In this document: one piece after another, positions 3,112 through 33,826 of the stretch | Position numbering within the stretch: the first letter of the stretch is position 1 | Layout of the letters: the number at the start of each line of letters is the position of its first letter | Source: Sphaerochaeta sp. Phil3 | Lineage (GTDB): Bacteria; Spirochaetota; Spirochaetia; Sphaerochaetales; Sphaerochaetaceae | Direction: 5' to 3' | DNA length: 33,826 nt | Assembly (NCBI GenBank): GCA_001940825.1 | Contig: MSGT01000066.1 | Location: 1 to 33,826 of the forward strand | Notes under the pieces: model-generated | What the model saw: the letters and a program-made list of their open reading frames with translations, nothing else | Databases searched by the model: none | Told to the model about the DNA's origin: nothing | Translations under genes and position numbers: made by a program

Positions 3112-3139
3112 TTCACTTTGGAAAAAAACATGCTATAAT
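3112..3139 (+). promoter_or_regulatory. Sigma70-type promoter upstream of a non-coding stretch
   Basis: TTCACT (3112-3117), a 16-base spacer and a perfect TATAAT (3134-3139) point rightwards. No protein gene follows for nearly 1 kb, so it probably drives the short transcript at 3146-3252. Confidence 0.5.
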
Positions 3140-3145
3140 TCAGTC

Positions 3146-3252
3146 GCTCGTTATACAAAGAAAAGAGTGGATTCCAATGTCTGTTAGACAAAGGGTCCGG
3201 GAAGGGAACTGAGGACTCTAGAAATGGAGAAGCCGGTTCCTTTTTCTTTCTT
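3146..3252 (+). ncRNA. Candidate small RNA ending in an intrinsic terminator
   Basis: A start about seven bases after TATAAT 3134-3139 would give an RNA of roughly 100 bases. The 3' end is a terminator: GGAACTG (3205-3211) pairs with CGGTTCC (3234-3240), there is an inner CTC/GAG pair, and TTTTTCTTTCTT follows at 3241-3252. Upstream, GTCC and GGAC could form another stem. No ribosome site or sensible reading frame is visible. The GGTCCGGGAAGG stretch recalls the SRP RNA tetraloop region, but the conserved SRP bases after it are missing. No known RNA family is recognised. Confidence 0.35.
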
Positions 3253-3341
3253 GGTTTTTGCGTGGTCTACGTTGTCGCTACAGCATACGCCGTGCAAATA
3301 GCACTGTCATATGCTTTGCTACTAGTATCCCATCGAAAACC
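3253..3341. repeat. Structured repeat, copy 1
   Basis: The apical hairpin spans 3282-3315. AGCATA-c-G pairs with C-a-TATGCT, the CC/TGT internal loop is kept, and the inner stem is GTGC/GCAC where most copies have GTAC/GTAC. The middle helix is GTGG-tc-TAC against GTA-tc-CCAT. The basal helix pairs GGTTTT (3253-3258) with AAAACC (3336-3341). It begins directly after the terminator of the candidate small RNA. Confidence 0.75.
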
Positions 3342-3362
3342 CCTGTGAAAGTTTTCTTGGTC

Positions 3363-3445
3363 TTTGCGAGCATTGCGTTGTCAGTTCGGGCACAGCCGTA
3401 CAGCAAGTACTGTCTGTGCCCTCCTTTCTAGCACTGCATCGCAAA
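3363..3445. repeat. Structured repeat, copy 2
   Basis: The apical hairpin spans 3388-3421: GGGCACAG pairs perfectly with CTGTGCCC, with the CC/TGT loop and GTAC/GTAC inside. The middle helix is GCA-t-TGC against GCA-c-TGC. The basal helix is TTTGCGA (3363-3369) with TCGCAAA (3439-3445). The spacer before the basal arm (GAAAGTTTTCTTGGTCTTTG) recurs almost unchanged after the copy, ending about 3474. It lies 106 bases from copy 1. Confidence 0.8.
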
Positions 3446-3646
3446 TACCTGCGAAAGTTTTCTTGGCCTTTGTGTCGTCTCCTGCGTCATATCAGGGTTT
3501 CTTTCGCTTGGTTTGCCTAAAAATGCTATTTTTTAGTTTCCTTAGGCTCTTGGATTGTAAATTCAAGGCATAAAATAGCCTAAAAATTGGTTCTTCACGG
3601 AAAGTTGGGGGATTGGGGGGGAGGGGAATTGAAGGAGAGCATCCAT

Positions 3647-3718
3647 CCTTGGGGCCGTTGGGGCTCTTCGGGCTCTTTGGGCCTATGGGGCCGTTGGGGC
3701 TGTTGAAGACCGTTGAAA
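3647..3718. repeat. Period-9 minisatellite, GGGC type
   Basis: Units such as CCTTGGGGC, CGTTGGGGC, TCTTCGGGC, TCTTTGGGC, CTATGGGGC and CGTTGGGGC run in exact 9-base register and decay into TGTTGAAGA and CCGTTGAAA. A minus-strand frame through it reads as Pro/Gly-rich triplets resembling collagen, but there is no ribosome site and the rest of that frame is low-complexity. The flanks 3446-3646 and 3854-4028 hold no gene I can support. Confidence 0.75.
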
Positions 3719-5108: not shown

Positions 5109-5465
5109 ATGTCAGACGAATACAAAGAAAACTCAATAGAGCAGACTTCTCAGGTACAGGCCCCCGCAGTGGCACCGGCCAACAACGGCGAAAGCCAGGC
5201 CGTCACAGCTCTGGTCCTTGGAATCATTTCACTGGCCTGTGTAGTTGCAGGATTCACCGTAGTTGGTGCAGTGGCAGGAATCGTGCTTGCAATCATCGGT
5301 CTTGTGATGGCTCACAAGTCGAGCGTCCTTGGATGTACGAACGGCAAGCGCACGGCAGGTTTCGTGTGCTCGGTCGTAGGCTTGGTGCTCAACTGCATAT
5401 GCGTGGTGCTGGTGTGCTTTGGACTGGCTATCGCCGCCGTCGCCATGTCCTGCTGGTGGCTCTAG
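5109..5465 (+). CDS. Small DUF4190-like membrane protein
   Basis: This 118-residue protein has a polar, Gln/Glu/Ala-rich N-terminus (residues 1-30) followed by two hydrophobic hairpin regions (about 31-68 and 82-115) separated by a short Gly/Lys loop (NGKRTAG). The ALVLGIISL opening and the repeated GxxxAxxxG pattern are typical of DUF4190 proteins, whose function is unknown. GGAGGTGAG gives a strong start. Its own promoter sits at 5049-5076. The TAG stop lies at the left edge of structured repeat copy 3, so the last residues may be shaped by the repeat. Confidence 0.8.
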   Translation: MSDEYKENSIEQTSQVQAPAVAPANNGESQAVTALVLGIISLACVVAGFTVVGAVAGIVLAIIGLVMAHKSSVLGCTNGKRTAGFVCSVVGLVLNCICVVLVCFGLAIAAVAMSCWWL

Positions 5466-5552
5466 GACTTTGCGGCCATCAACTACGTCAGGGCGAACGG
5501 TGCCGTACAGCCAAGTACTGTCACCGTTCTTCTTCCTTGTCCTGACCGCAAA
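5459..5552. repeat. Structured repeat, copy 3 (type A)
   Basis: The apical hairpin is GAACGGTG (5495-5502) with CACCGTTC (5522-5529), enclosing CC/TGT and GTAC/GTAC. Outside it GTCAGG (5487-5492) pairs with CCTGAC (5541-5546), and TTTGCG (5469-5474) with CGCAAA (5547-5552). The left arm carries an extra 12-base stretch that can form a side hairpin in copies 5 and 7. CTCTAGGAxTTTGC at its left edge contains the TAG stop of the upstream gene, as at copy 5. Confidence 0.8.
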
Positions 5553-5720
5553 TTCCGTCGAGCAGGCTCTGGTTTTCAAGCGCATTACTGCGTTGGTTCG
5601 AGCATGGCCGTACAAATTAGTACTGTCCATGCTCTTCCGCCTTGTACTGCATCTTGAAAACCCTTGGGCAAATTCCGTCGAGCAGGCTCTGGTTTTCAAG
5701 CGCATTACTGCGTTGGTTCG
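5548..5720. repeat. Perfect 53-base direct repeat, 120-base spacing
   Basis: Bases 5548-5600 and 5668-5720 are identical. Each carries the left arm and linker of a type B structured repeat. The first is followed by a complete hairpin (copy 4). The second ends in GGGCACTACAAGC with no hairpin, so it is a half unit left by recombination or partial duplication. Confidence 0.85.
5571..5662. repeat. Structured repeat, copy 4 (type B)
   Basis: Basal helix: GGTTTTCAAG (5571-5580) with CTTGAAAACC (5653-5662), ten perfect pairs. Middle helix: GCA-t-TAC with GTA-c-TGC. Apical hairpin 5600-5634: GAGCATGG with CCATGCTC, CC/TGT internal loop, GTAC/GTAC and a six-base loop. Confidence 0.85.
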
Positions 5721-5754
5721 GGCACTACAAGCATCAATTGAATAGGAGTTGGAT

Positions 5755-13301: not shown

Positions 13302-16300
13302 TCAGCTCTCCGGGGTGGCGATTTCAAGGACACCCATGGGACAGGCTTTGGCGCATTGGCCGCAGGCTATGCACTTCTTGGAGACGTGCATGACGGGGTC
13401 TTCCACCATGAGGCCAAACGGGCAGGCTTCACGGCACTTGCCGCAGTTGTTGCACATCTTGAGGTCCACGACGCACACTCCAAACTGATTGCGGCTTATG
13501 GCCTTCTGAGGACAGGCATCTGCACAGCGTCCGCACTGTATACACGTCACAGGTCTTGTTATGAGACCCTGTATGCCGCTTTGGTTGCCAATTCCTTTCC
13601 TCTCCCGCACTTGCAGGAATGCAAGTGAAGCCTTCTCTTGCTTGAAGAAGATCTTGGAGCATGTACGCACGCACTCAAGGCATCCTATGCAGCGAGCGTT
13701 CTTGTTCACTGCAAGGCTCTTGACCTTGCGCTTCACTGCTGAGCCTTCGTCGAGGCTATATGGAGTGTTTTCTATAGGAAGCGAGAAGCGCTTAATACCA
13801 TCGAGCCTGTAGTAGGCATCGGCTATGCAAGGGGCCGTTGGGATGGAAGTGATCTCTCCAAGTCCCTTGCCTCCGTTTGCTATATCAAGGCCGGGTTTTT
13901 CTATGATTACAGGCACTAAATCAGGTACTTCGTCCGCTCTGAAAAGCCCAAGGGAGCCATATTTTGCAAGTGGCTTGCAGTCTTTGAGAGGGTAGTTCTC
14001 CCTAAGGGCGTAGCCTGTGCCCATAATGACACCGCCTTCTATCTGGCCTTCAACGTTGGTTGGGTTTATTGCCCGTCCTACATCGTGGGCGGCTATGATC
14101 CTGTCTATCTTGTGGGTCTTCTCATCGAGCACCGCAACTTGGGTTGCATAGCCGTATGCCACGTGGCTCTTTGGATGTGGCTTGTCGCTGCCAAACGGAT
14201 CCGTCTCTGCTAGGTATTCGGCATAGAATTCGCGGCCTTCGAGGGTTTTCAGGGCATCGTTTGGGGTGAGGCTGCTCGTTGAAAAGCTGGAGAATCCGCT
14301 AGGGGCCGAATCCTCAGGGGCATCGGCCTTGGCAACGAAATCGGTCTTGGCAACGAAATCGGCCTTGGCAACGAAATCGGCCTTGGCAACGAAATCGGCC
14401 TTGGCAACGAAATCGGCCTTGGCTGCACCTTCACCAGACACCTTGTCCAATGCCGCCTTCAACTGCAGTGCGGCTCGTCGTGCGGCCTCGCCCGTGACGG
14501 TTGTGTGTCTTGAGCCTGATGTCGTGCCGCTGTCCGGAGCCTTGATGGTGTTGGCTTTCTCCTCGATGACGAGTTCTCCGGGAAGACCCGTTATGTCGCA
14601 GACAATCTGCTTGAGTATGGTACACAGGCCTTGTCCTATGCAGGAGCCCCCGCAGTGGATGACGACGTGGCCATCTCGCACTTCCAGGTCAACTCGTCCA
14701 AAGTCCAAAAGACCCACGCCCACGCCAGCGTTCTTCATGGCACATGCAATGCCTGCGTACCTGTTGGATTCGTATTCGTCCTTGACGGCCTCAAGCGTCT
14801 CCACCAAGCCGGTTGCGTTGTCAACGATTTGGCCGTTTGGAAGTGCCTGACCTGGCCTTATGGCGTTGCGGTAGCGAATCTCCCAGTGAGAGATTCCAAT
14901 TTCGTCTGCAATGTGGTTGAGCATGGACTCTATGGCAAAGCACGTCTGGGTTACACCAAAGCCTCTGAATGCGCCCGCAGGCGGGTTGTTGGTGTAGTAG
15001 GCGTATCCGTCTATCTGGAAGTTTTCGTAGTTGTATGGACCCGATGCATGTGTGCACGCCCTTTGCAAAACAGGAAGCCCCAACGATGCGTATGCGCCCG
15101 TGTCTGCAATCACAGTGGCTTTGAGGCCTTGGATTATGCCGTTTTCATCGCATCCAAGGGTGAAGTCCATATCCATTGGGTGTCGCTTTGGATGCACCAG
15201 AATGCTTTCTTGCCTCGTGAGCTTCATCTTGCATGGACGTTTGGTGAGTAGGGCGGCAAGTGCGCTAAGGTGCTGTACCGTAACGTCCTCCTTGCCTCCA
15301 AAGCCACCGCCTACATAGCAGTTCTCTACTACAACCTTTTCTGGTGGCAGTCCCAGCATTGGTGCTGTTTCGCGTCTTGTGTCATAGACACTCTGGTCCG
15401 TGGAGTATATCTTCACGCCAGTGACATTGCCAGTGGCATTGCCAGTGACATTGACAGTGTCTTTGGAATCGCCGCTTTCAGATCCGATTTCAGAACCATC
15501 TACAATAGGGAACGCCACCGCAGCCTCAGGCTCTAGGAACGCATGCTCGGTCCACGGAGTGGAGTATTTCTCGTGCAGTACGTATTTTGATTTAGCCAAA
15601 GCGGTTTCCACGTCTCCGCGGTCCACATGGGTGTGCCCAAGAAGGTTGCCGCCTTCTCTTTCCTCATGAACCCTGGGAGCATCCTCCTTCATTGCCTCGT
15701 ATGGTGATGAAACGAAGGGAAGCACCTCGTACTGAACCTTCACAAGGTCAGCGGCTTTGCGGGCATCGGCGTATGTTTCGCCCGCCACTATGCATATAGC
15801 ATCTCCAAGGTAACGGGTTATACCACCAACCGGGATCATTGCGTCCCAGTCCCTGAGTATGTGTCCTACTTTTATATCGCCAGGGATGTCCTGAGCCGTG
15901 AAGATTCCAAACACACCGTTTGCGTCCATTGCAAGCGAAGTGTCTATGGAAAGCACCCTTGCGCGCGGATACTTGGATCTGACAGCCACAACGTGCAGCA
16001 TGCCGTCTGCGTATATGTCATCTGGGTAGACCCCACGTCCCGTAACCTTGTCCATGACATCCACACGTGGGATGCGCTGTCCAATTCTCCAGTTGCGGTC
16101 TTTGTCTATGCCTTCAACGCCAAGGGCCTTGAACTCATCATTTTTCAGACCGATGTCCTTGCACTCTTCCTTGGCCGCATCCTCTCTGAACATCCTTGCC
16201 GCAAGTTCAACGGCCTTCACTATCTTTGCATAGCCCGTGCAGCGGCAAATGTTGTTCCTTAAGGCATGTCGAATGTCCTTTTCCGTGGGTGATGGGTTCT

Positions 16301-16634
16301 CGTCCAAAAGCGCCTTTGAGCATATCACCATGCCAGGGATGCAGAACCCGCACTGAACAGCACCGGCCTCTCCAAATGCAGTGGTGAATATGTCCTTTTG
16401 CCTTTGCGACAGCCCTTCGACCGTCCTGACGGACTTTCCCTCCATGTCTGACACCATTAGCGTGCATGCCTTCACGGCCTTGCCATCCACAAGGATTGTG
16501 CAGGTTCCACATGCACCCTCCGAGCATCCGTCCTTGACCGATGTCAAACGAAGGTCGTCTCTAAGATATCTTATGAGTTTTTTGTCGTTTCCTACGACAA
16601 CAGGGCTATCGTTTACGGAAAAGCTTGTACTCAC
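13302..16634 (-). CDS. One-chain xanthine dehydrogenase: [2Fe-2S] + molybdopterin + polyferredoxin
   Basis: This 1110-residue molybdenum hydroxylase should oxidise hypoxanthine/xanthine toward urate. Residues 1-150 hold two [2Fe-2S] sites (C37, C42, C45, C57; then C95, C98, C130, C132). The molybdopterin part starts near 185, with GGGFGGKED, GAFRGFG and the catalytic-glutamate region GGKGLGEITSIP. The last ~120 residues are a ferredoxin with four CxxCxxC clusters (CIGCLEC, CIQCGRC, CNNCGKC, CIACGQC). No FAD domain is present, so electrons probably pass to the ferredoxin end and not directly to NAD+. It resembles selenium-dependent clostridial enzymes. Start is GTG, overlapping the permease stop (GTGA). 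Two tandem repeats lie inside the molybdopterin part. Xanthine is inferred from the family and transporter; a related purine is possible. Confidence 0.88.
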   Translation of the reverse strand: MSTSFSVNDSPVVVGNDKKLIRYLRDDLRLTSVKDGCSEGACGTCTILVDGKAVKACTLMVSDMEGKSVRTVEGLSQRQKDIFTTAFGEAGAVQCGFCIPGMVICSKALLDENPSPTEKDIRHALRNNICRCTGYAKIVKAVELAARMFREDAAKEECKDIGLKNDEFKALGVEGIDKDRNWRIGQRIPRVDVMDKVTGRGVYPDDIYADGMLHVVAVRSKYPRARVLSIDTSLAMDANGVFGIFTAQDIPGDIKVGHILRDWDAMIPVGGITRYLGDAICIVAGETYADARKAADLVKVQYEVLPFVSSPYEAMKEDAPRVHEEREGGNLLGHTHVDRGDVETALAKSKYVLHEKYSTPWTEHAFLEPEAAVAFPIVDGSEIGSESGDSKDTVNVTGNATGNVTGVKIYSTDQSVYDTRRETAPMLGLPPEKVVVENCYVGGGFGGKEDVTVQHLSALAALLTKRPCKMKLTRQESILVHPKRHPMDMDFTLGCDENGIIQGLKATVIADTGAYASLGLPVLQRACTHASGPYNYENFQIDGYAYYTNNPPAGAFRGFGVTQTCFAIESMLNHIADEIGISHWEIRYRNAIRPGQALPNGQIVDNATGLVETLEAVKDEYESNRYAGIACAMKNAGVGVGLLDFGRVDLEVRDGHVVIHCGGSCIGQGLCTILKQIVCDITGLPGELVIEEKANTIKAPDSGTTSGSRHTTVTGEAARRAALQLKAALDKVSGEGAAKADFVAKADFVAKADFVAKADFVAKTDFVAKADAPEDSAPSGFSSFSTSSLTPNDALKTLEGREFYAEYLAETDPFGSDKPHPKSHVAYGYATQVAVLDEKTHKIDRIIAAHDVGRAINPTNVEGQIEGGVIMGTGYALRENYPLKDCKPLAKYGSLGLFRADEVPDLVPVIIEKPGLDIANGGKGLGEITSIPTAPCIADAYYRLDGIKRFSLPIENTPYSLDEGSAVKRKVKSLAVNKNARCIGCLECVRTCSKIFFKQEKASLAFLQVRERKGIGNQSGIQGLITRPVTCIQCGRCADACPQKAISRNQFGVCVVDLKMCNNCGKCREACPFGLMVEDPVMHVSKKCIACGQCAKACPMGVLEIATPES
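14323..14430. repeat. 18-base tandem repeat within the xanthine dehydrogenase gene
   Basis: Five full units and one partial unit of TCGGCCTTGGCAACGAAA encode repeated ADFVAK. One unit differs by a single base (A to T substitution in the protein). The near-identity means recent expansion. It falls in a loop between two conserved parts of the molybdopterin domain, so length changes may be tolerated. Confidence 0.9.
15418..15465. repeat. 12-base tandem repeat within the xanthine dehydrogenase gene
   Basis: Four units of GCCAGTGACATT or close variants encode NVTGNATGNVTG, a second surface-type insertion before VKIYSTDQSVYDTRRE. Confidence 0.75.
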
Positions 16635-23933: not shown

Positions 23934-25298
23934 ATGAAGGCTCAAGTAGCGGATTTCTTGGACAGACACAGTCTCAACCCGGACGGCATTGGAATGGACG
24001 GGCTTTGTGACTATTTCATTCGCGAGATGGAGAAGGGCCTTTCCGGGCAGAAGAGCTCCCTTCCAATGATTCCAAGCTACTGTTCTCCAAATGCGCTTCC
24101 AAGGGCGGGCGAGACGGTCATTGTAATAGATGCAGGCGGCACCAACCTTAGGACGTGCCTTGTGGAGTTTGACCCATCGCTCAAGCCCGTTGTGCACGAT
24201 TTCAAGCGAACTCGTATGCCTGGGTTCGACAGGGAGGTGAGCGCAAAGGAGTTCTTTGAGGTGTTCGCCGGTGAGATCGAGCGCCTTGTGGACAAGAGCG
24301 ATAGGATTGCCTTTTGCTTCTCGTATGCTGCGCGGATACTGCCTGACCATGACGGCGTTCCAATTGGATTCAGCAAGGAGATAAAGGCCCCTGAGGTCAT
24401 TGGGATGCGCTTGGGGGAGAACCTTCTGGCGGAGCTTTCACGCCGTGGGCACGATGTGTCCAAGAAGAAGGTGATAATCCTCAATGACACCGTCACGACC
24501 CTTCTTGCCGCACAGTCGCACAACACTGACGGCAAGTACGATGGTTGCATAGGCTTCATACTTGGAACAGGCACGAACACTGCATATATAGAGCAGAACT
24601 GCAGGATCCAAAAGCTCCCGGAAGGGCACTGCATGCAGGGCAGCCAGATAATCAACGTTGAGTCCGGATGCCTGGACATTTGTCTTGGGGACATTGACCG
24701 AGAGTTCCTGGACGGTACGGTGGACCCCAAGTCATACAACTTCGAGAAGATGATAAGCGGTGCGTACCTTGGTCCTTTGGGAAGGCACGTCATAGCCGCC
24801 GCGGTGAAGGAGGGGCTGTTCAGCGAAGGATTCTCTTCAAGGTTCGAGGATATGTGTCCCTGCCAGGATTCCCTTGCAACCAAAGATCTCAGCTGTTTCC
24901 TGGAACACGAGGATTCTCCATCTGAGTATCCCTGCGATTCTTCACAGTGCTATGACTGCGGCTCCACAGACGACAATGTGCTTGTAAAATGCGTAGCAGG
25001 AAACGAAGATGATGCAGACATCCTGTGCGAACTCCTCACCGCCTTCATAGCGCGTGCAGCAAAACTCACAGCTGTTAACCTTGCATCGGCAGTGCTCATG
25101 ACGAACTTTGGAAAGGATCCAGACCATCCAGTGCTCATAAACGCAGACGGCACCACCTTCTACAAGACGGCGTACCTCAGAAGCTTCACCCAGGAATACC
25201 TGGATGCGTTCCTTGCTCAGAAGGGACGTCATGCGGTGTTCACGAGAATAGAGGACTCGCCAATCATTGGCTGCGCCATTGGCGGTCTTACCCTCTAG
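23934..25298 (+). CDS. Hexokinase (eukaryote-like family)
   Basis: This 454-residue protein should phosphorylate glucose at the start of glycolysis. It has the actin-fold phosphate-1 motif VIDAGGTNLRTCLVEF (65-80), the catalytic aspartate in ILNDTVTTLLA near 186, the second phosphate loop GFILGTGTNTAYIE near 210 and a C-terminal GCAIGGLTL. This resembles the eukaryotic-type hexokinases found in treponemes more than the short ROK glucokinases of most bacteria. Residues ~305-365 form a cysteine-rich acidic insertion (CPCQD, CDSSQCYDC). ATG 23934 follows AGAGGAGA. The TAG stop lies at the edge of structured repeat copy 5. Confidence 0.9.
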   Translation: MKAQVADFLDRHSLNPDGIGMDGLCDYFIREMEKGLSGQKSSLPMIPSYCSPNALPRAGETVIVIDAGGTNLRTCLVEFDPSLKPVVHDFKRTRMPGFDREVSAKEFFEVFAGEIERLVDKSDRIAFCFSYAARILPDHDGVPIGFSKEIKAPEVIGMRLGENLLAELSRRGHDVSKKKVIILNDTVTTLLAAQSHNTDGKYDGCIGFILGTGTNTAYIEQNCRIQKLPEGHCMQGSQIINVESGCLDICLGDIDREFLDGTVDPKSYNFEKMISGAYLGPLGRHVIAAAVKEGLFSEGFSSRFEDMCPCQDSLATKDLSCFLEHEDSPSEYPCDSSQCYDCGSTDDNVLVKCVAGNEDDADILCELLTAFIARAAKLTAVNLASAVLMTNFGKDPDHPVLINADGTTFYKTAYLRSFTQEYLDAFLAQKGRHAVFTRIEDSPIIGCAIGGLTL

Positions 25299-25388
25299 GA
25301 TTTTGCAGTCAATGACTGCGTCAAGGCAAACGGTGCCGTACAGCTAGTACTGTCACCGTTCTTCTTCCTTGTCCTGACTTCAAACTCC
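25290..25388. repeat. Structured repeat, copy 5 (type A)
   Basis: Apical hairpin 25329-25360: AACGGTG with CACCGTT, CC/TGT loop and GTAC/GTAC. A side hairpin GCAGTC-AAT-GACTGC (25305-25319) fits in the left arm, then GTCAAGG pairs with CCTTG and TGAC. TTTG pairs with CAAA and GGA with TCC at the base. The left edge CTCTAGGATTTTGC contains the hexokinase stop and matches copy 3. Confidence 0.75.
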
Positions 25389-25403
25389 GTCGAGGGATCT
25401 CTA

Positions 25404-25494
25404 GGGCTTTAAGCGCATTGCTTCGTTGGTTCGAGCATGGCCGTACAATTAGTACTGTCCATGCTCTTCCTCCTTGTATTGCATCTTAAATCCC
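25404..25494. repeat. Structured repeat, copy 6 (type B)
   Basis: Basal helix GGG-c-TTTAAG (25404-25413) with CTTAAA-t-CCC (25485-25494). Middle helix GCA-t-TGC with GTA-t-TGC. Apical hairpin 25433-25466: GAGCATGG with CCATGCTC, CC/TGT loop, GTAC/GTAC. The basal stem differs from copy 4 on both sides with pairing kept. Confidence 0.8.
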
Positions 25495-25507
25495 GTCGAG
25501 GGAGCTC

Positions 25508-25555
25508 TGTTTCTGCAGCCATTGACTGCGTCAGTGCAAACGGTGCCGTACAAAG
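25508..25555. repeat. Structured repeat, copy 7, truncated
   Basis: The left arm (GCAGCCATTGACTGCGTCAG), ACGGTGCCGTAC and AAAG remain, and then the similarity stops before the right half of the hairpin. It marks the left border of the AT-rich island. Confidence 0.7.
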
Positions 25556-25568
25556 AATACTAAACTAT

Positions 25569-26533
25569 TTACAGTCTTGTTATTTCCCATCTTCCATTGC
25601 GTTTTGCGCCAACTCTTTTGACAATGCCCAACTCACAGAGCTTCTTCAAACGAATTGAGACTGTTTTGCGGCTTGTAGACATTTTTTCTGCAATATTTGT
25701 CGTTGTAGATTCTGGGTTTTTCTGTAGTAAAGAAATGATTTGGAGCGATTTTTGATCCAACTTTTCTGTGTCGTTTATTGTAACCTTTTTTGTAACCTTT
25801 ATTGTAACCTTTTCACTTTCTTTTTCTTTGTTCTCTCTGGAGTTGCTTGAACCTTCAATCCAGTTTTCCGGAGCGGAGAATCTAATCATGATGTCCCCTG
25901 GATTGATTGTATACTCCGGCTCTGGAACTCCGCTGTTCCTACATGCAGAGCAAATCTTTTCAATCCCTCGTCCCCAACTCTCAATGAAACCTGCCAAATA
26001 CAAGACGTGGGCGATATTTGGATTGTAAGGTTTGGAGGCATGTTTACTCATTAGGTTTTCCAGCGTCCAATTTTCAGGAAGCCTCCCGCAGTTGGCAATG
26101 TAAAGCTTGTCTTCGTATACGCTAATTTGAATGGGAACACCAGACTGGTATTCCTTATGGCAATGGCATTTAGAATTGCTTCGCGAAGGGCATCCTCTGG
26201 CACAAAGTAATGTTCTATGCGCTGTATGCCTTCATAGGTGATTTTTGCCTTCATGTACTTGAGGTAGACCAATTCTATAGCCTTGTCTACTTGTTCTAAA
26301 ACCGACCCATGGACTTCATCTTGGTATTTCAAATCGGAATCCGTTTCAAAATAGCCAATCTTTATGTAGGCTCCAAGTTGCCATTTCTCAGGGTCTCTTC
26401 CAAAAAGGAGCATTGCGGCGTTGGTCAAATAGCTTCCATTCACTAGATGAAGTTTTTCTATCAAGGCATCTTTTGGCTCTTCAAGTATGCTCTTGTCGAT
26501 TCGTCCTTTTCTTAGACTCCATTCCTTGAAATG
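25569..26533 (-). pseudogene. Broken AlbA/RecG-like ATP-binding transcriptional regulator
   Basis: The two frames together match the middle and C-terminus of the widespread AlbA-domain 'putative transcriptional regulator' family. The upstream part (to about 26160) contains LREAILNAIA; the downstream part reads YQSGVPIQISVYEDKLYIANCGRLP, MSKHASKPYNPNIAHVLYLAG and ends in a winged helix after a KVTIKVTKKVTI repeat. The frames meet at 26158-26161, where one missing G (GCCATAAGG for an expected GCCCATAAGG on the coding strand) fits the normal AIAHKEYQ. The N-terminal AlbA domain (about 150-200 residues) is absent: a stop lies at 26534-26536. It is therefore both 5'-truncated and frameshifted. Confidence 0.85.
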
Positions 26534-30433: not shown

Positions 30434-30465
30434 CTTTGTACTGACTTCGTTGGTTCGAGAATGGC
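30434..30465. repeat. Structured repeat, copy 8, remnant at the right island border
   Basis: CTTTGTACTG is followed by CTTCGTTGGTTCGAGAATGG, matching the linker and left hairpin arm of a type B repeat (CTTCGTTGGTTCGAGCATGG in copy 6). The right arm is missing; the minus-strand gene stop (30466-30468) follows at once. Confidence 0.6.
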
Positions 30466-30864
30466 TCAGTAGGCTTCGCCTAGGGAGAAGTCGCCCACTA
30501 TTTTCATGAGCTTGCCATCTTTGACAATGGAGAGGTCTCTGTTGGGGAACATTATCTTGAGGTTGTTTTGGAGATACGAGAACGCCGCATCGTTTATCTC
30601 CTGTCTCTCTTCTGGCGGTACTCTATCCAACGTTCTTATATCCACTTCCACAACGTATCCGCGACCTGAGTTTGAACCATAACCCAAAGTGAAGGCCAAT
30701 GCGGTGGAGAACAGACCATCGAAGCGTGGGTTGGAACCTGATCCTCTTTTGAGTCTGTTCGGATGTATCCTGTACTTTGTTCCATACAGGTCTTCAAGGT
30801 AGTCGTCAAGGTTCTGGCAAAGCATAGAGAGAGTGCTTTCAAGTTCTTCCTGTTTTGGATGCAT
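30466..30864 (-). CDS. Conserved-looking 132-residue protein beside a patatin-like lipase
   Basis: I do not recognise this family. The protein is charged and soluble, with no signal or membrane segment. Helix (QEELESTLSMLCQNLDDYLEDLYG) comes first, then a basic Gly/Ser stretch (RLKRGSGSNPRFDG) and a strand GRGYVVEVDIRTLDRVP. The end carries MFPNRDLSIVKDGKLMKIVGDF. AAGGA lies upstream of ATG. It starts 15 bases after the patatin gene on the same strand, so the two form one unit and probably act together. Its stop codon abuts repeat copy 8, so the last codons may have been altered. Confidence 0.65.
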   Translation of the reverse strand: MHPKQEELESTLSMLCQNLDDYLEDLYGTKYRIHPNRLKRGSGSNPRFDGLFSTALAFTLGYGSNSGRGYVVEVDIRTLDRVPPEERQEINDAAFSYLQNNLKIMFPNRDLSIVKDGKLMKIVGDFSLGEAY

Positions 30865-33789: not shown

Positions 33790-33793
33790 CCCT

Positions 33794-33826
33794 TCTTGGT
33801 CGTTGCATGGTCTACGTTGTCGCTGC
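33794..33826. repeat. Structured repeat, copy 9, cut by the window end
   Basis: CTTGGT, then GTTGCATGG and TCTACGTTGTCGCTGC match the left arm of copy 1 (3250-3283) with four differences. The hairpin itself would lie beyond the window. Confidence 0.6.

Follow-up and report, generated by a model that had tools for sequence, protein, structure and literature searches.

The palindromic repeats in the stretch of DNA analysed here, the 33,826 nucleotides of contig MSGT01000066.1 of Sphaerochaeta sp. Phil3 (hereafter, the window), are probably non-autonomous mobile DNA elements that belong to a Correia-type superfamily and are moved in trans by some enzyme. The element occurs in at least three bacterial phyla and, outside Neisseria, starts near a stop codon in the sense orientation or right behind a terminator.

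A single hairpin plan with compensatory changes

Each unit of about 100 nt forms one long hairpin, for which an alignment of 40 copies from the Phil3 genome gives 31 base pairs. From the base upwards, the hairpin consists of a basal helix (TTC/GAA), an internal loop, a 3-bp helix, a C-T mismatch and a helix of 9-10 bp; it continues with a 3-bp helix closed by an almost invariant C-G pair, an asymmetric loop with CGTYGTC, a helix of 7-8 bp, a CC/TGT internal loop, a 4-bp helix and a short loop at the top. The 3-bp helix above the basal loop appears as GGT/ACC, GGA/TCC, GGG/CCC, GCT/AGC or GTT/AAC, and the 4-bp apical helix as GTAC/GTAC, GTGC/GCAC or GTAT/ATAC. A preliminary description of this DNA had claimed outer stems that differ in sequence and stay complementary (GAACGGTG/CACCGTTC, GAGCATGG/CCATGCTC and GGGCACAG/CTGTGCCC), an inner stem changing from GTAC/GTAC to GTGC/GCAC and concerted changes in the basal stem, and all of these are read in the sequence as claimed.

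Across the 40 Phil3 copies, 89.7% of the cells pair, compared with 67.9 ± 0.8% after shuffling, and cells with changes on both sides number 270 versus 88 in the shuffled alignments. When the partner was slid by 1-3 columns, the covariation score fell from 0.55 to about 0.1. RNAalifold independently recovers most of the pairs, adding three more, of which two fall in the asymmetric loop and the third in the CC/TGT loop. Because the copies are related, an R-scape-like phylogenetic test was written, using a FastTree tree, Fitch reconstruction and 60 null alignments with equal changes per branch. Applied to 66 intact Phil3 copies, it returned 10 significant covarying pairs at E<0.05, all 10 within the structure. 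A test of this type had been proposed beforehand, with a lack of covariation above phylogeny as the result that would speak against the hairpin; ten pairs exceed the phylogenetic expectation. The proposal of a single multi-helix hairpin with compensatory changes and a constrained structure is thus upheld by both shuffling and the phylogenetic test, and the conclusion that the structure of the element is under constraint is supported.

Copies in the window

The window contains six full copies of 101-103 nt each and several truncated ones, all on the forward strand. The six full copies make up three head-to-tail pairs, each followed by one incomplete copy that breaks off in its left half or at the apex, and they are matched with E values from 5e-17 to 3e-23 by R1, a covariance model built solely from 40 copies of this spirochaete genome. 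Array 1 consists of a unit with the inner stem GTGC/GCAC at 3248..3349 (R1 82 bits, E 1e-17) and a unit of the GGGCACAG/CTGTGCCC type at 3354..3455 (104.8 bits, E 2.7e-23), and is closed by a truncated left-half copy at 3460..3489 (direct repeat D8 and the sequence). Its first unit starts right after a terminator-like hairpin with a T tract (GGAAC...GTTCC-TTTTT), located by eye at about 3205..3245. Array 2 comprises units at 5460..5562 (89.6 bits) and 5566..5668 (79.1 bits) and a truncated left-half copy at 5669..5724 with 98% identity to 5548-5604 (repeat D2); the left end of its first unit, CTCTAGG, includes the TAG stop (5463-5465) of an ORF listed at 5109-5465. The same left end, CTCTAGG, is found in array 3, where it includes the TAG stop (25296-25298) of a hexokinase-like gene at 23934-25298; the units of this array lie at 25293..25394 (87.3 bits) and 25399..25500 (98.4 bits), and the closing copy at 25504..25568 breaks off just past the apex (repeat D4; weak R1 match at 25504-25600, E 0.49). 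In addition, a partial copy at 33793..33826 is cut by the contig end (partial R1 match, repeat D7), and a probable remnant at 30444..30465, a 22-nt match to the left half of the element with 20 of 22 bases identical (repeat D5, blastn), adjoins the stop of the minus-strand ORF 30466-30864.

All six copies that had been listed in the preliminary description are therefore present and fold alike. Their bounds need slight extension, since a further 3-bp helix and the basal helix belong to the unit, and it had been missed that the 5' ends abut stop codons (5463-5465 and 25296-25298) or the terminator-like hairpin (~3205-3245).

Several other features were observed in or near these regions. A possible small RNA gene, with a TATAAT-like box, a length of ~100 nt and a terminator-like hairpin, lies at 3130-3245 between recQ and array 1. 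A further dispersed repeat, of low complexity (GGGGCCGTTGGGGCTCTTCGGGCTCTTTGGG), is found at 3650-3710 and at the end of contig C61 (L041), each time after an element array. At 14304-14441, an 18-bp in-frame tandem repeat (AKADFVAKADFV...) is located within the 1110-aa ORF 13302-16634.

Spread within and beyond the genome

R1 gave 87 matches at E<=1 in the Phil3 genome (2.36 Mb in 72 contigs, the window being C66). The copies that were read form 49 clusters, and the units are co-oriented within every cluster. Copies were also found in 14 of 118 sampled relatives, spanning four genera.

An exact-pattern scan of ~85,000 species genomes extended this range to Sphaerochaetaceae-type gut MAGs, Clostridia and Oscillospiraceae MAGs, Janthinobacterium, Andreprevotia, Pseudoduganella and Pseudomonas nitroreducens. 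With R1, between 3 and 45 copies were confirmed in each of these carrier genomes. Matches at E<=1e-4 are carried by 48 of 200 sampled genomes (24%) in the order of Andreprevotia, where the types include TATAGTGG (G745), TATAGTC with arms differing between copies (G869) and TTCCATT (G764). In the class of the Clostridia MAG, matches are patchy (12 of 291 sampled genomes). R2, with stricter filters, undercounts, as only 13 copies were regained even in the Phil3 genome. No element was detected in viral contigs by exact-pattern search, and the Rfam covariance models gave no match at the window elements and no credible one at the elements of 16 other loci.

Position at gene ends

The end of an element or array was taken as flush when it fell between 22 nt inside a gene (about -20) and 8 nt past its stop codon. 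In the Phil3 genome, the left end is flush with a stop in 35 of 49 clusters and the right end in 8 of 49 (Fisher p 5e-8). The relatives within the family show the same asymmetry (left ends 36/58, right ends 8/58), as do Andreprevotia, Janthinobacterium, Pseudoduganella and Pseudomonas (19/24 versus 3/24), while the result for the Clostridia MAG is weaker (10/22 versus 3/22). Most of the other Phil3 clusters begin after the T tract of an intrinsic terminator, and two begin after an apparent 5S rRNA end, as judged by eye. In several spirochaete relatives, the element occupies the gap between two co-directional genes. A literature search for strings of the element sequence, and for palindromic repeats tied to stop codons, returned nothing. 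The stop-codon rule points either to a novel specificity of insertion or to strong filtering at the ends of genes.

Signs of movement, arrays and retention

The 3' end of the hexokinase gene offers a comparison between species. In the congeners G064 and G050, the element is absent and two convergent stops abut, while it is present in Phil3, G025, G060, G072 and G056, with stems that are unalignable between some of these lineages. G007 has the left half only, and one element common to G060 and G072 is oriented oppositely in the two genomes. In relatives, the convergent neighbour of the hexokinase gene is a small gene ending in ...GDFSLGEV, but in the window the two lie ~5 kb apart (25298, and 30466-30864 on the minus strand). 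It looks as though a segment had been inserted at the hexokinase junction that bears the element, with the probable remnant adjoining the stop of the partner gene.

Regarding the arrays, the inner parts of the units are no more alike within arrays (identity 0.58) than between them (0.60), indicating that different lineages were assembled and that the arrays did not form by local duplication; tandem duplication as their origin is rejected on the same values. The outer arms, on the other hand, have an identity of 0.80 within arrays versus 0.68 between. Arrays are often followed, as at L117, L119, L110, L112, L127 and L132, by an AT-rich inverted repeat of another kind, each with its own sequence (TTTAGGAAGAAAATTTTCTTCCTAAA, TTTTGCATAAA...TTTATGCAAA, GTGGAAG...CTTCCAC). 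At L034, L035, L014 and L023 of the Phil3 genome, the right half of the element is lost and what follows is a degenerate tandem tract, GTGCACTAAGCTCACTATGCTCATTACGCTTACT.

In G764 (L380-L385), a distinct Correia-type subfamily is represented by six very similar copies that carry a 3-bp TTA, TCA or TAA on both sides, as seen by eye in this one genome, and four of the six abut the stop codon of a convergent gene. With such an apparent duplication, insertion into a stop codon would restore the stop. A duplicated target, a trait of Correia insertions, was sought elsewhere as a repeated stop trinucleotide and was seen in 1 of 32 candidates, equal to chance. The position behind a rumA/rlmD-type gene is common to Phil3, G064 and G012, the last from another genus; positions common to species or genera speak against simple mobility and also fit long-term retention with a function.

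Pairing at the level of DNA or RNA

A helix that is kept as RNA tolerates G-U but not A-C, and on the opposite strand the two swap. Among 66 Phil3 copies, we counted 47 G-U and 51 A-C, and among 104 copies from other genomes, in an alignment that had been fitted to the structure, 110 and 117. A model-independent count, selecting well-paired copies, gave 11 G-U, all at one position, and 26 A-C, while 24 tRNA acceptor stems from the same loci, used as a control, gave 12 G-U and no A-C. The apical helix in other genomes has A-T in 75 and G-C in 28 of 104 copies, with zero G-U intermediates. As G-U equals A-C in frequency while the tRNA stems show 12:0, the better fit among the two options in the preliminary description, RNA or single-stranded DNA, is DNA, in single-stranded or cruciform form. 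These observations point to pairing that matters, or arises, at the DNA level, and they leave room for a secondary role of the transcript. The count of G-U against A-C may serve as a simple means of separating DNA-level from RNA-level covariation, a distinction that matters where searches treat covariation as proof of structured RNA.

Explanations for the element

We consider it unlikely that the unit is a functional RNA, a 3'-UTR element on which selection acts as RNA behind the stop and which would serve as a terminator, as a protector of the mRNA 3' end or as an RNase III site. It would suit the sense orientation flush behind stops in three phyla and the copies that sit between cistrons of apparent operons, and NEMIS transcripts are RNase III substrates in Neisseria (PMC2649163, PMC10969869). 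However, G-U does not exceed A-C, whereas it does in the tRNAs, the apical helix passes from A-T to G-C and shows no G-U, many copies are located after a terminator or 5S rRNA and so outside the main transcript, and the distribution is very patchy, with no Rfam family. A strand-symmetric mismatch pattern would also be expected if a mutational process, such as template switching or mismatch repair acting on the extruded hairpin, kept the arms complementary with no selection on structure, an idea to which we give little credence. It is favoured as well by the greater similarity of the outer arms within arrays, and by right arms that could pair with the end of the upstream coding sequence at a few loci (the rumA-type gene; G007/G064 C198). 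Nevertheless, the CC/TGT loop, the C-T mismatch and the unpaired CGTYGTC and CTWG are conserved, and arm-to-arm copying would erase them; moreover, complementarity generally stops short of the coding sequence (true pairs 4.6 and 4.8, shuffled pairs 4.9 and 5.0). A general derivation of the arms from the preceding coding end was rejected, as only the loci just named show it and the true pairs do not exceed the shuffled ones. Finally, the preliminary description had suggested looking for a RAYT or other transposase gene, and the Phil3 genome does have seven Y1_Tnp matches, most of RAYT length. But a REP-type element moved by a RAYT (Y1 HUH) transposase is highly improbable: none of 20 Y1/RAYT genes has an element closer than about 2 kb, G120 (45 copies) and G012 (9 copies) are without a Y1_Tnp match, many genomes with Y1_Tnp lack the element, and the 100-nt unit has no GTAG or CGTC foot beside a short stem.

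Under the preferred reading of a mobile DNA element, a trans-acting recombinase or transposase would recognise the extruded DNA hairpin, possibly through its apex and the unpaired CGTYGTC and CTWG strands, and move it. Insertions would persist at gene ends because the stop codon and the terminator are spared, and later units would be added beside an existing one, giving rise to arrays. When transcribed, the hairpin would sit at the mRNA 3' end, where RNase III could cut it, as reported for NEMIS in Neisseria; such cutting would be a side effect and would not account for the structure. The analysis turned up neither a mobilising enzyme nor a transposition event. The strict sense orientation is left unexplained if insertion is purely neutral. 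A broader version can be entertained only tentatively: the elements might form an ancient cross-phylum class of structure-recognised hairpins with Correia as a frozen-end branch, in which insertion in sense at gene 3' ends is designed, an enzyme acts in trans, units are added in order, and the arms, not the apex, adapt to each locus.

Comparison with known repeat families

REPs are 20-40 bp long and consist of a single short stem with a tag at its end (PMC3733652). Like the element, they are palindromic, extragenic and dispersed, and both are thought to act as single-stranded DNA; the element differs in its 101-103 nt and several helices, and in having neither a foot tag nor a RAYT link. ERIC, RUP and other bacterial MITEs are ~100-200 bp long, with inverted repeats and a long transcribed stem-loop, and are without their own transposase (PMC2229807). 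The element resembles them in size, in its inverted repeats, in its long stem-loop when transcribed and in lacking its own transposase, and, judged by description, they are different as far as known. Integron attC sites were also considered: these have GTTRRRY/RYYYAAC boxes, cassettes between sites and IntI, whereas no such boxes were seen by eye in the element, whose units adjoin without cassettes.

Since 1986, the Correia element has been treated as a peculiarity of Neisseria, and we know of no enzyme that mobilises it. The first link to it came from a blast search of a plasmid collection, which matched N. gonorrhoeae chromosomes filed as plasmids. The Janthinobacterium-type core occurs at 35 places in one N. 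gonorrhoeae chromosome, and the gonococcal sequence at these matches, TATAGTGGATTAA...GCCGTACTATTTGTACTGTC...TTAATCCACTATA, is the short Correia element. When run on 200 kb of N. gonorrhoeae, R1 matched five sites (E 1e-6 to 0.03), namely all five elements of 105-107 bp that have TATAGTGGATTAA/TTAATCCACTATA at their boundaries, and no others. Since a model built only from spirochaete copies picks out precisely these short Correia/NEMIS elements, we conclude that the element is a relative of the Correia element, and the earlier statement that no known family is recognised no longer holds.

The element and the short form of Correia (104-108 bp) are alike in length and hairpin plan, both are multi-copy and non-coding, and they have in common the conserved apical core GCCGTAC-N-GTACTGTC, with CGTTG on the left and CCTTG on the right. 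Inversion in place has been reported for Correia elements (cited in PMC10969869), and it is seen for the element at the hexokinase locus. On the other hand, Correia has 26-bp TATAGTGGATTAA ends, whereas the element lacks them and its arms vary by locus and lineage, the Phil3 ends being TTC/GAA, CTC/GAG and others that differ by locus. As these defining ends are absent, the element is a relative and not CREE sensu stricto. It is also flush behind stops in sense, whereas in G745, with TATAGTGG ends, only 3 of 10 left and 2 of 10 right ends are flush, and, unlike Correia, it builds head-to-tail arrays of unlike units. The Correia element is described from Neisseria in a 2024 review (PMC10969869), and no report of a Correia-type element outside Neisseria was found in the open-access papers that were searched. 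What is new is its range across phyla, the rule of starting at stop codons, covariation of the DNA type and arrays built from unlike units, and a superfamily that takes in Spirochaetota, Clostridia and many beta- and gamma-proteobacteria provides a phylogenetic profile with which the mobilising enzyme can be sought.
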